The notes under the pieces are model-generated. The model was given only the letters and a program-made list of their open reading frames with translations. It made no database searches and was not told the DNA's origin. A stretch of 64,000 nt of DNA from Acidobacteriota bacterium (GTDB lineage: Bacteria; Acidobacteriota; Terriglobia; Terriglobales; Acidobacteriaceae), in NCBI GenBank assembly GCA_021781795.1, contig JAJXWA010000010.1, positions 720-64,719 on the forward strand, in the 5' to 3' direction. Shown here piece by piece: positions 49,579-58,875 of this stretch. How positions within the stretch are numbered: the first letter of the stretch is position 1; each line of letters starts with the position of its first letter. Both the position numbers and the translations under genes were made by a program.

Positions 49579-49653
49579 TCCTCAGTAGCTCAATGGCAGA
49601 GCATTCGGCTGTTAACCGAAGGGTTGTAGGTTCGAGTCCTACCTGAGGAGCCA
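49579..49653 (+). tRNA. tRNA-Asn(GTT)
   Basis: Complete cloverleaf. The acceptor is TCCTCAG/CTGAGGA, the D-arm is GCTCAATGGCAGAGC, and the anticodon stem TTCGG/CCGAA carries loop CTGTTAA, giving anticodon GTT. The T-arm is GTAGGTTCGAGTCCTAC. Discriminator G and encoded CCA end at 49653. The 3' half is the apparent left attachment site of the island that follows. Confidence 0.98.
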
Positions 49654-49654
49654 A
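49609..49654 (+). repeat. Left attachment-site repeat (3' half of tRNA-Asn)
   Basis: 46-nt 3' part of tRNA-Asn, from the anticodon loop to the CCA plus one A. It aligns with 58832-58875 at about 38 of 46 positions by hand, with two single-base gaps; the last 12 bases (CTGAGGAGCCAA) are identical. Both copies have the same orientation, as expected for attL/attR. Confidence 0.8.
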
Positions 49655-49660
49655 TTCTTT

Positions 49661-49912
49661 TCAGCGACTTACGCCCCCTCCCAACTCCCCGATGACCCTC
49701 AAGAATGCCCGACTGTGGGGACTTTTGTGGGTACTCGTGCTGGACTCATTCGATGTGCTCGACTTATGGACAATTACTTCGAGCGTGCTGCGTTTGGCTT
49801 CCATCCGGAAGTGACCGTAATGCTTCCGCATCTGCTTCGAGACGTGGCCGGCGATATCCATGATTGTCTGGTCGCCGCGCCCCTCACGGCACTCTGGCTT
49901 GGGTGAACGCAC
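49661..49912 (-). pseudogene. C-terminal fragment of a tyrosine recombinase (integrase)
   Basis: 83-codon remnant read towards the tRNA, ending 8 bp from it. Residues 15-42 (DQTIMDIAGHVS to HYGHFRMEAKR) reproduce the last catalytic box of phage-type integrases: His23 in AGH and the nucleophile Tyr32 in HYGH. The upstream R-H-R part of the catalytic set is absent, and the reading frame is joined to unrelated sequence at about residue 12. An integrase oriented into the tRNA is the normal arrangement for a tRNA-targeted island. Confidence 0.8.
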
Positions 49913-49921
49913 CTTCCTCCG

Positions 49922-50150
49922 TCAGGCCGGCAAGCTGCAGCCGTCTTTTCGGATTGCGCCCTTCAGGACTTCCCAGTCGAGGCTCAGGTCGGCCACCAAC
50001 CGCTTCGGCCGCCGGCTCTCGTCTTCCATCTGCCGCAGCCGCTGCGCCTCGTTGACCTCTATGCCGCCATACTGCGACCTCCAGCGGTAGAACGTGGCTA
50101 TCCAACCTCGAGATGCCCTGGCAATATCTGACCATCGGAAGCGAAGTCGT
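49922..50150 (-). pseudogene. Fragment of IS3-family transposase OrfA
   Basis: An open minus-strand frame ending TGA at 49922-49924 reads as the second half of IS3-family OrfA: ATFYRWRSQYGGIEVNEAQR, then LRQMEDESRRPKRLVADLSL, then WEVLKGAIRKDGCSLPA. The frame is open upstream to about 50150, but the usual helix-turn-helix N-terminus (KRxRFTEEQI type) is gone and there is no start codon. OrfB is also absent. It abuts the integrase remnant, suggesting an IS insertion into the old integrase followed by deletion. The sequence between 50150 and 50242 shows nothing I recognise. Confidence 0.75.
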
Positions 50151-50242
50151 TGGTAAACGGGTGGAACAAGAACTCTTCCCCGTCGAGGAATAGATGCCGG
50201 ATCCGATTGATCCGCTCATTGCGTGGGACAAATCCCCGCCGC

Positions 50243-50698
50243 TTACAGGTTCCCCGCGCTAAAGCGCTTTCTCAATTGATCGGAGCGGTATCGAAAGATT
50301 TTCTCGATGTCAGGGCGTACGAACCAGCGATGCACCAAAGAATCAAAAGGAACGGCATATTCCACGAGGTCCCGCACCAACGTCCCGCCGTCGGAGGCGT
50401 CGAACATGTGCTGATGAATCCACTGGCGATACGGGCCGCGCAATTGTTCGTCCACGAAAAAATGCGGAGGTTGCCAGCTGCGGATGCGCGTGCGCCACTT
50501 GACGGGTAGGCCGTGGATGAGGAGTTTGTAATCGATCAATGTTCCTTCCCGCATTTCAATCGGCGCGGGTGTCAGGATTTTGAAATTCAGCCAAGGCGGC
50601 GTAATGATTTCGAGATTGGCCGCGTCGGCGAAGAATGAAAACAGTTGATCGGGCGGCAATGGCAGCCAGATTTCGCTTTTGAATTCGCGGATTGTCAT
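50243..50698 (-). CDS. SRPBCC-fold protein (polyketide cyclase/START-like)
   Basis: 151-residue cytoplasmic hydrophobic-ligand-binding protein. AAAGGAAG sits just before the ATG at 50698. MTIREFKSEIWLPLPPDQLFSFFADAANLEIITPPWL is the classic SRPBCC start, with GTLIDYKLLIHGLPVKWRTRI strands and a closing helix RPDIEKIFRYRSDQLRKRF. Such proteins often sit beside carotenoid and other lipid pathways, where they may bind or shuttle the pigment. It lies 80 bp downstream of the crt operon and is probably part of the island cargo. Confidence 0.85.
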   Translation of the reverse strand: MTIREFKSEIWLPLPPDQLFSFFADAANLEIITPPWLNFKILTPAPIEMREGTLIDYKLLIHGLPVKWRTRIRSWQPPHFFVDEQLRGPYRQWIHQHMFDASDGGTLVRDLVEYAVPFDSLVHRWFVRPDIEKIFRYRSDQLRKRFSAGNL

Positions 50699-50778
50699 CT
50701 ACTTCCTTTCATGTCTCTGTCCAGGCAGAATGAGGTTCGAACATCTGCCGGTAAAACTGTTCCCTCCGGCAATCGGAA

Positions 50779-57592: not shown

Positions 57593-57665
57593 TCCACAAC
57601 CGTAGCCCGGTCGCGCGGGGCAATGGCTGGCGTCGGGAATGTGCGGATGAATCGGTTGCTTTTTA

Positions 57666-57690
57666 TGCAAGAAATCTGGAATATCTTGCA
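57666..57690. promoter_or_regulatory. 25-bp dyad, candidate operator of the crt operon
   Basis: TGCAAGA at 57666-57672 and TCTTGCA at 57684-57690 are perfect 7-bp arms, and two further flanking bases also match with one mismatch between. It lies in the 160 bp between the XRE-cupin regulator and crtN, about 75 bp upstream of crtN. On the minus strand a weak TTGCAA (57686-57691) and CATAAA (57662-57667) spaced 18 bp could be the promoter, so the dyad would cover it. Binding by the regulator is inference. Confidence 0.5.
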
Positions 57691-57752
57691 ACTGGATAAA
57701 ATGAGCCTTCCACTACGCAATAACGGCGTCGTGCGCGGCGGAGCTTTACGCG

Positions 57753-58406
57753 CTATCTGGGAGAGCCTGTTGTGACCACAATCGCCGTGCAGGGCGTCTT
57801 TACGAGGCTGCGATAGGTGTGCTTCTGCATGGAATCGAAATAAATGGCATCACCGGCCGAAAGCTGGAATGTCTCCACGCCGATCTTCATTTCGAGCTCT
57901 CCCTCGATCAGGTAAAGTAACTCCACTCCCTGGTGATAGTGCGGCACAGCTTTCTCTGGCGGCAGCGGATGGAAATGCGCCAGGTAGCCGCTCAGCTTTT
58001 TCTCGTTCACGCGGAAATCGAGGCTTTCAAAATGCCATGGAACCTCAGTGGACTTCGGATCGGCTGGAAATGACTTCCGCTCGTTCCGCCGTGCCACGGC
58101 CACGATGTGACGCTTTCTTGGATCACTGAAGAAGTAGTCCAGTCCGACGCCGAATACCAGTGCGATGCGTGTGAGCGTGGGAAGAGTGGGCAATAACTTG
58201 CCATTCTCAAGACGCGACAGCATGGCGGACGAGAATCCCGTGTGCTCGGCCAATTGTGCAAGGCCCATGCTGCGGCGCAGTCGCAAGGTGCGGAGCTTGT
58301 CTGCGATCGCATATGGGCGAAGCGATTCCTGAACGACCGCGCTGTCAGTGGCTTTGACTTTTGCTTTCCGTCGTTTCGGCTTTATCGGCTTTCGGTTTTC
58401 CGCCAT
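57753..58406 (-). CDS. XRE-family regulator with C-terminal cupin
   Basis: 217-residue transcription factor. A basic N-terminal stretch (Lys/Arg, 5-20) precedes the helix-turn-helix RSMGLAQLAEHTGFSSAMLSRLE at about 50-70. The cupin sensor has PHYHQGVELLYLIEGELEMKIG (His and Glu ligands) and the LSAGDAIYFDSMQKHTYRS strand. Such regulators sense a small metabolite through the cupin. Position directly upstream of, and parallel to, the crt operon suggests that it controls pigment synthesis. GTG at 58430 is an alternative start. Confidence 0.88.
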   Translation of the reverse strand: MAENRKPIKPKRRKAKVKATDSAVVQESLRPYAIADKLRTLRLRRSMGLAQLAEHTGFSSAMLSRLENGKLLPTLPTLTRIALVFGVGLDYFFSDPRKRHIVAVARRNERKSFPADPKSTEVPWHFESLDFRVNEKKLSGYLAHFHPLPPEKAVPHYHQGVELLYLIEGELEMKIGVETFQLSAGDAIYFDSMQKHTYRSLVKTPCTAIVVTTGSPR

Positions 58407-58668
58407 AGACCAAAGTGCATGCCCCTTCACTGACGATCAGCCCGAATTGCTTGAGTGTCAAGGGACCAATCGACAGCCGAAGGGGTAGCACTGGATTCGG
58501 ACGTAGTGAGAAAGCGGGTGTCTATCCGCTCGTATCGATGACCGATGGAATTTTGGTCCAAAGTTGGAGAAGCCGTCAGTGGAGTGAATTCTCAGCCTTC
58601 TTACATCTTCGGATGTGCTTGGCACAGAAGGGTTCGTTGCCGATGCTGGCAATGGGAAGCCGAGCTCG

Positions 58669-58823
58669 ACCTTGATGGCGGCAGGCGACGGTGCTGTGGA
58701 CCTCCTTGCCGGGCCGTCGGCGCGTCAAATGGGCGCGGAGCGGACCATGCGATCAACAGAAGGGCGGCCAGACAGAAGCTGGCTTGCGAGTTCGGCGCAA
58801 CCGACATCGTAGCCGAGCGGCGA
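58669..58823 (+). pseudogene. Frameshifted fragment of a zinc-type alcohol dehydrogenase
   Basis: Two short plus-strand reading frames together give a stretch of the medium-chain dehydrogenase Rossmann fold: GDGAVDLLAGPSARQMGAER in one frame (to about 58760), then RQKLACEFGATDIVAER in another. A single frameshift separates them. Neither the catalytic zinc site nor the rest of the domain is present. It lies just inside the right att-like repeat and is a decay scar of former island cargo or of a neighbour gene. The rest of 58407-58968 shows no gene. Confidence 0.65.
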
Positions 58824-58831
58824 GTTTTCAA

Positions 58832-58875
58832 CTGTTAGCCGGAGGTTGTGGCTTGAGTCCTGGCTGAGGAGCCAA
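58832..58875 (+). repeat. Right attachment-site-like repeat (decayed tRNA-Asn 3' half)
   Basis: 44-nt direct copy of the tRNA-Asn 3' half, from CTGTTAGCCG to CTGAGGAGCCAA. It has six substitutions and two single-base gaps relative to 49609-49654. The T-arm stem no longer pairs, so it is not a functional tRNA. It marks the right end of the island. Confidence 0.8.

Follow-up and report, generated by a model that had tools for sequence, protein, structure and literature searches.

The question raised by this locus is whether a block of pigment genes lying between a tRNA-Asn gene and a decayed copy of its 3' part is the remnant of a mobile element, and whether that element brought the genes in. 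The window, a stretch of 64,000 nucleotides of contig JAJXWA010000010.1 (positions 720 to 64,719, forward strand; assembly GCA_021781795.1) from a member of the Acidobacteriaceae, holds the locus at 49.58-58.87 kb. This interval is probably what is left of an integrative element at the tRNA-Asn 3' end, and holds a horizontally acquired, intact operon for C30 carotenoid synthesis. Whether the element itself delivered the operon is evenly poised.

The left end is an intact tRNA-Asn (GTT) gene at 49579..49653 on the plus strand, called by ARAGORN and read as the attB/attL site. The right end, at 58832..58874 on the plus strand, is a decayed copy of the tRNA 3' part in the same orientation, read as the attR scar. 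The original prediction had reported 38 of 46 aligned columns as identical, and this count was confirmed, with six mismatches and two gaps. A query made of the tRNA 3' part gives the right copy a score of 56, compared with 22-33 for the best place downstream of this tRNA in 18 relatives; a whole-tRNA query gives it 68, compared with 35 for the next-best place in the window and 41 for the best of 60 shuffled queries. The right copy starts at the same base as the four shortest (45 bp) attachment (att) cores of relatives, a common core that lies at 49609-49653 within the tRNA-Asn of the window. Together with both of its arms it matches an att copy of the sister species G380 (G380:C40) over 66 bp with 85% identity. 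The local alignment of the whole tRNA reaches weakly into the D arm, upstream of 58832, but this match to the tRNA 5' half is probably due to chance. A whole-tRNA copy on the right was considered and rejected: Rfam gave no match at this place with E values up to 10, and no att copy read in relatives covers more than 58 of the 75 tRNA bases. Only the tRNA 3' part was counted at this end, and a longer ancient copy is conceivable. A different age of the two island ends was rejected as well, because the differences (8/46 versus 25/237) gave p = 0.21.

A tyrosine-recombinase remnant, consisting of the 3' end of the gene with an internal deletion and a frame change, is located at 49656..49891 on the minus strand and abuts tRNA-Asn. 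It was recognised by DNA identity to an intact integrase of G380 (97% over 141 bp, about 60 bp of which are tRNA, and 88% over 184 bp in a second segment); the two segments are in different frames, with the deletion between them. The intact integrase (G380:C81) is a tyrosine recombinase of 462 aa (PF00589, 8.5e-22) that abuts an att copy on the same strand as in the window. Its C-terminus is encoded on the complement of the tRNA, so that the end of the gene overlaps it. The stub is also related to an integrase of G365. The integrase C-terminus read earlier beside the tRNA is thus genuine; as only this 3' stub is left, the island is fixed, in line with the loss of mobility that had been proposed. 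The stub keeps 64 of the 75 third codon positions of the G380 integrase, the figure for SecA between the same genomes being 72%, and its differences are scattered across all three codon positions, a pattern that fits a decaying gene. There is only a hint that the stub may have arrived after the window species and G380 split. An attempt to show by four-fold sites that the integrase is younger than this split was discarded, the comparison being unfair to a coding gene.

The right-hand repeat is part of an att system that extends through the genus, and is not a chance repeat. The last 31 bases of tRNA-Asn were searched with up to three mismatches in 30 of 80 genus genomes, including the window's own (G000). 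The tRNA-Asn 3' end was matched in all 30 genomes and at least two copies were present in 14. Copies on one contig share their orientation in seven of seven genomes, with spacings of 19 kb (G378), 56 kb (G289), 66 kb (G013), 175 kb (G001), 189 kb (G039) and 225 kb (G008), and with three copies 9.9 and 59.4 kb apart in G009. Twenty copy stretches were read. Two hold the full tRNA and 18 are partial, none of the latter being called as a tRNA by ARAGORN; in 14 of the partial copies 45-58 bases, counted back from CCA, agree fully with the tRNA, and the remaining four have one or two mismatches or an N. Four copies have the shortest core (45 bp), which begins at CTGTTAACC, in the anticodon loop, and the others extend up to 13 bases further. 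Chance repeats at unrelated tRNA genes, raised earlier as a contrary outcome, did not appear.

G380 has four copies of the tRNA-Asn 3' end, and G026, G365, G370 and G009 have three each (L341, L342, L343, L345). Several copies per genome are the pattern that tandem islands would leave. Another kind of integrase is found at this tRNA in G380 with genes for AAA, lytic transglycosylase, CagX and TrbI proteins (Pfam), and the same clusters of integrase and type IV secretion-like genes are present, in whole or in part, in G026, G039 and G008. Judged by these families, the integrase and the CagX/TrbI set at tRNA-Asn in G380 would make up an element like an integrative and conjugative element (ICE). 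The 3' side of tRNA-Asn is variable across the genus, in which this tRNA gene serves as a hot spot of integration.

Tyrosine recombinases are known to insert genomic islands and ICEs at tRNA 3' ends. In the window, an integrative element would have used the tRNA-Asn 3' end as its attachment site, and recombination in the core, which runs from the anticodon loop as far as the 3' CCA, would have left the tRNA whole at the left and a core copy at the right. This is the general pattern in the relatives, and we infer it for the decayed copy in the window. The likeness to tRNA-integrated islands and ICEs includes the tRNA 3' end as attB, the direct repeat as attR, an integrase adjoining the tRNA, repeated att copies in relatives and decay of the element. 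Unlike typical representatives, the island carries a pigment operon as cargo and is reduced to about 9 kb, and the 3' end of the window-type integrase overlaps the tRNA on the opposite strand. As islands go it is an ordinary one, well supported by its biology.

The horizontal origin of the pigment genes was proposed originally and is borne out by phylogeny. CrtNb with at least 65% identity is present in 14 of the 80 genus genomes (own included), in two versions that are about 76-83% and 65-70% identical to that of the window; seven other genomes have only relatives of about 30-37%. In the SecA tree G000 joins G380 (100/99) and the genus is kept together. The concatenated crt tree contradicts this and splits the genus, grouping G000 with G364 and a pair of genomes from another genus (95, starred); it is a quick tree with support from the SH-like approximate likelihood ratio test only, and G306 was left out as too short. 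For crt, the approximately unbiased (AU) test rejects both a grouping of G000 with G380 (p 6e-68) and monophyly of the genus (p 0.001). The sister species G380 carries a distant version of the operon at another place, at which a CrtN ortholog was not recovered. Between G000 and G380 the CrtNb, glycosyltransferase and aldehyde dehydrogenase (ALDH) proteins are 70%, 49% and 54% identical, versus 93.5% for SecA. Horizontal acquisition of the pigment genes is strongly supported. A recent transfer between genera is plain in G373 and G345: their operons share 92% DNA identity across 7.9 kb, with no homology beyond them in the stretches compared (L253, L100), and the crt proteins are 87-97% identical, versus 68% for the C-terminal half of SecA. 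The transfer into the window's lineage is older, because its four-fold sites are only 38-48% identical to those of the nearest operon relatives.

As predicted, the cargo operon is intact, with genes open across 50243-58430, all on the minus strand, in the order XRE-cupin, CrtN, ALDH-DUF2141, CrtNb, GT2, CrtO, orf117, SRPBCC. The first gene, at 57753..58430, encodes an XRE-cupin regulator (PF07883/HTH_31) and is also the first cassette gene in the loci closest to the window. It is followed by a CrtI-family desaturase in the CrtN position (56048..57592, open frame from 57691; TIGR02734, 7e-131), a 622-aa frame in which an aldehyde dehydrogenase is fused to a C-terminal DUF2141 domain (54183..56051; PF00171, 3.3e-111; PF09912, 9.7e-28), and a second CrtI-family oxidase/desaturase in the CrtNb/CrtP position (52669..54186; TIGR02734, 8.4e-110). 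A GT2 glycosyltransferase in the CrtQ position (51599..52672; PF00535, 4e-23) and a CrtO-type glycosyl-diaponeurosporenoate acyltransferase (51123..51530, start uncertain, frame to 51851; PF18927, 7.5e-29) come next. The last two genes encode orf117, a small conserved operon protein without a Pfam match (50779..51132), and an SRPBCC/polyketide-cyclase-like protein (50243..50698; PF03364, 1.9e-10), which is also present in the operons of G364 and G298.

By family matches, the set of the squalene-route C30 pathway (CrtN, CrtNb/CrtP, AldH, glycosyltransferase and acyltransferase) is complete. The genome also contains two SQS_PSY genes next to hpnE, with hpnH and squalene-hopene cyclase at the same locus. 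They were best assigned as HpnC (over the cut-off) and HpnD (244.8 bits, below the cut-off of 278.6). No CrtM or further SQS_PSY gene was found in this genome, which is 87.7% complete, for which reason a CrtM gene may have been missed. As the only SQS_PSY genes are of the HpnC/HpnD type and lie next to hpnE, the pathway is most likely squalene-based. Squalene from chromosomal HpnCDE would be desaturated by CrtN, CrtNb and ALDH would carry out the terminal oxidation, and GT2 would glycosylate and CrtO acylate the product to a staphyloxanthin-like ester. From the enzyme families, a C30 carotenoid glycosyl ester is the expected product.

The gene order of the staphyloxanthin operon of Staphylococcus aureus was used for comparison. 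Unlike in S. aureus, CrtM was not found in the window's genome and the squalene genes are located elsewhere in the chromosome. The CrtN, CrtP, AldH, CrtQ and CrtO set is shared with the S. aureus operon (roles as given in PMC10448405). The squalene-route C30 pathway was tested in Methylobacterium extorquens and Planctopirus limnophila, where, according to two reports, HpnCDE gives squalene and two desaturase-type enzymes and a glycosyltransferase act, as proposed here (PMC10448405, PMC12078418). The end product of M. extorquens AM1 is acylated, as is proposed for the window, but the authors found no CrtO homologue in AM1, where another acyltransferase performs the step (PMC10448405). Unlike AM1, the window operon has a CrtO-family protein, the ALDH-DUF2141 fusion, and XRE-cupin and SRPBCC genes.

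A search for the CrtO family in 300 genomes of the family matched 31, and 29 loci were read, the window's own excluded. The operon, whole or in part, is present in the same gene order in 22 of the 29; the other seven loci had no operon match and were left out of the operon counts. The XRE-cupin gene and orf117 accompany the version of the operon closest to that of the window. ALDH is absent from the operon loci of G298 and G192. The ALDH-DUF2141 fusion is open in the window and in 14 of the 19 relatives' loci that have ALDH, and the other five stop shortly past ALDH, without DUF2141. The two parts are joined by a hydrophobic, signal-like stretch (judged by eye). In metagenome-assembled genomes (MAGs) of Kapabacteria, Ignavibacteria and Bacteroidetes related gene sets are present, and DUF2141 occurs in them as a separate gene at the operon start (L292, L299, L304, L307). 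Because DUF2141 is fused to ALDH in 14/19 loci and is a separate operon gene in these MAGs, a previously unrecognised role in the synthesis or placement of C30 carotenoids is suggested. Granulicella-type operons (L089, L270, L287) keep DUF2141 and have no match to the ALDH half.

CrtNb was also aligned against the genome contigs, with 53 named loci. Bacteriovoracaceae MAGs (L289, L290) carry a related gene set, in L289 without an ALDH match; their CrtNb proteins are 65 and 61% identical to that of the window, near the range of the distant Acidobacteriaceae versions. Among the titles and abstract openings of the papers listed, no report on this operon in Acidobacteriaceae was found, which is no proof of absence.

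The surroundings of the operon differ in almost every genome. A protein within 1.5 kb of the operon ends is common to only one of 406 pairs among the 29 loci (G326/G345, near-identical genomes), versus 50 of 210 pairs for SecA in 21 genomes (within the genus, 32 of 45). Of the 29 loci, six end early on one side. A search over 4.5 kb added one further likely common neighbour (G080/G198, 58% identity), and its other matches across genomes, at 27-38%, are paralogue-like. Because of this difference from SecA the operon is regarded as nomadic, and it would be a cassette moving among the Acidobacteriaceae. Twelve integrase queries gave no match in the 29 other operon loci. tRNA genes were found in three of the 22 operon loci scanned (L094, L098, L105); in L094 the operon end is 180 bp from tRNA-Val, and an open reading frame (ORF) for a recombinase zinc-ribbon lies beside tRNA-Met on the same 5.7-kb contig. 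Mobile genes near other operons are a recombinase zinc-ribbon ORF in G306 and an insertion sequence (IS) transposase in G326/G345. Transposon ends around the operon were sought and rejected, since the edges of the G373/G345 block show only short, chance-like repeats.

These data bear on the claim of the original prediction that the island delivers the operon. What stands is an island scar with the operon inside; delivery has no more than an even chance, as elsewhere the operon moves without these integrases. A serious though more tentative alternative is that the operon entered separately, by homologous or illegitimate recombination like the other copies, into a hot spot full of element debris. 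Separate entry agrees with the changing neighbourhoods, with the lack of any match to the tested tyrosine integrases in the other loci, with the lack of a tRNA in 19 of the 22 loci scanned, with homology that ends near the operon edges in G373/G345 without clear terminal repeats, and with the variability of the tRNA-Asn 3' side. It accounts less well for the fact that the operon fills nearly the whole interval between the two ends of one att system, as it would in an island reduced by deletion. The broader proposition could equally well hold or fail: the C30 operon of the Acidobacteriaceae would be a self-contained, nomadic cassette of 6-8 kb that includes an ALDH-DUF2141 fusion and, in one of its versions, an XRE-cupin regulator of its own. 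It would pass between genera in one piece, be cut close to its ends and travel on tRNA-Asn islands only in some cases. A single transfer of such a cassette would be enough for the whole pigment, since squalene is already made by recipients that have hopanoid genes.

Several observations weigh against an island remnant that carried the operon to this place. The right copy is too decayed to serve as proof of recombination. The window is the only case found of the operon between tRNA-Asn att copies; in the carriers G289, G008, G001 and G009 the operon is outside the delimited tRNA-Asn island, and in G002 it is megabases from tRNA-Asn. An empty AhpD - tRNA-Asn - 58969 site, which the original prediction had hoped for, was not found in the relatives examined: gene 58969 is next to tRNA-Asn in none of 20 relatives' stretches (3-18 kb past the tRNA), and neither AhpD nor tRNA-Asn adjoins gene 58969 in any of 16 loci, some of them ended by contig edges. 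The genome is a draft of 89 contigs and 87.7% completeness, and the right junction therefore rests on one contig. The composition is in keeping with a foreign origin, but the shift is modest. G+C content at third codon positions (GC3) is 0.61-0.69 in the eight cargo genes, versus a mean of 0.76 (standard deviation 0.055) in 31 presumed host ORFs, of which at most four fall below any cargo gene. In tetranucleotide distance the island stands at 0.174, and of 24 overlapping segments of 9.2 kb, some of them containing the island, one lies higher.

On the left flank, HAD and AhpD-like genes (48211..49456, minus strand) are linked to tRNA-Asn across the genus, the order HAD - AhpD - tRNA-Asn being conserved; ARAGORN called tRNA-Asn in 25 of 30 AhpD loci (the window's included) and in 18 of the 20 longer stretches. 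In G002 (C1:3907352-3954982) the AhpD-like gene, usually beside tRNA-Asn, is in two parts about 47 kb apart. On the right flank, the conserved genes 58969 and 59940 occupy 58965..60317 (minus strand), the homology of relatives starts at 58965, and the set of 58969, 59940, TPR and sigma factor genes is conserved in relatives. The 3' neighbour of gene 58969 differs among relatives, including G380 and G026. No crt genes were found in the 20 relatives' tRNA-Asn stretches; the same crt block at the same place in relatives, an outcome that the original prediction had named as contrary to it, did not appear. Inside the ends lie an IS3-family OrfA C-terminal scrap at approximately 49922..50116 (minus strand, ends set by hand), recognised originally and matched by PF01527 at E 2.6e-6, and a decayed stretch at 58545..58831 (plus strand). 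The latter had been read as a scrap of an alcohol dehydrogenase, and this reading was given up, as searches of PDB and Pfam gave no match.

That the right junction is an assembly chimera is highly improbable. The draft state of the genome and the position of gene 58969 away from tRNA-Asn in 16 other loci would agree with it, but the junction has a decayed att core, both arms of which resemble the att copy of the sister species, and both flanks find their closest matches within the same group of relatives. In G026, moreover, an att copy and gene 58969 are on one contig in the same relative orientation as in the window, 55 kb apart, an arrangement that supports the right junction and is the nearest substitute for an empty site. 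Least probable of all is that the operon was inherited vertically and lost from most relatives: although the conserved gene order indicates that the operon is old in the family, the crt and SecA trees are in strong conflict, the sister species G380 has a distant version and a recent transfer between genera is visible in G373 and G345.

The island remnant with its operon shows clearly that pigment genes travel as a unit between soil bacteria whose core metabolism already equips them to use such genes. It also defines the tRNA-Asn 3' end as an integration hot spot in one genus of soil Acidobacteriaceae, where intact integrases occur and att copies are separated by 10-225 kb; the att site and integrase could become useful in the genetic manipulation of these bacteria. 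The patchy spread of the operon makes it possible to test the role of C30 carotenoids in soil Acidobacteriaceae by setting carriers against closely related non-carriers.

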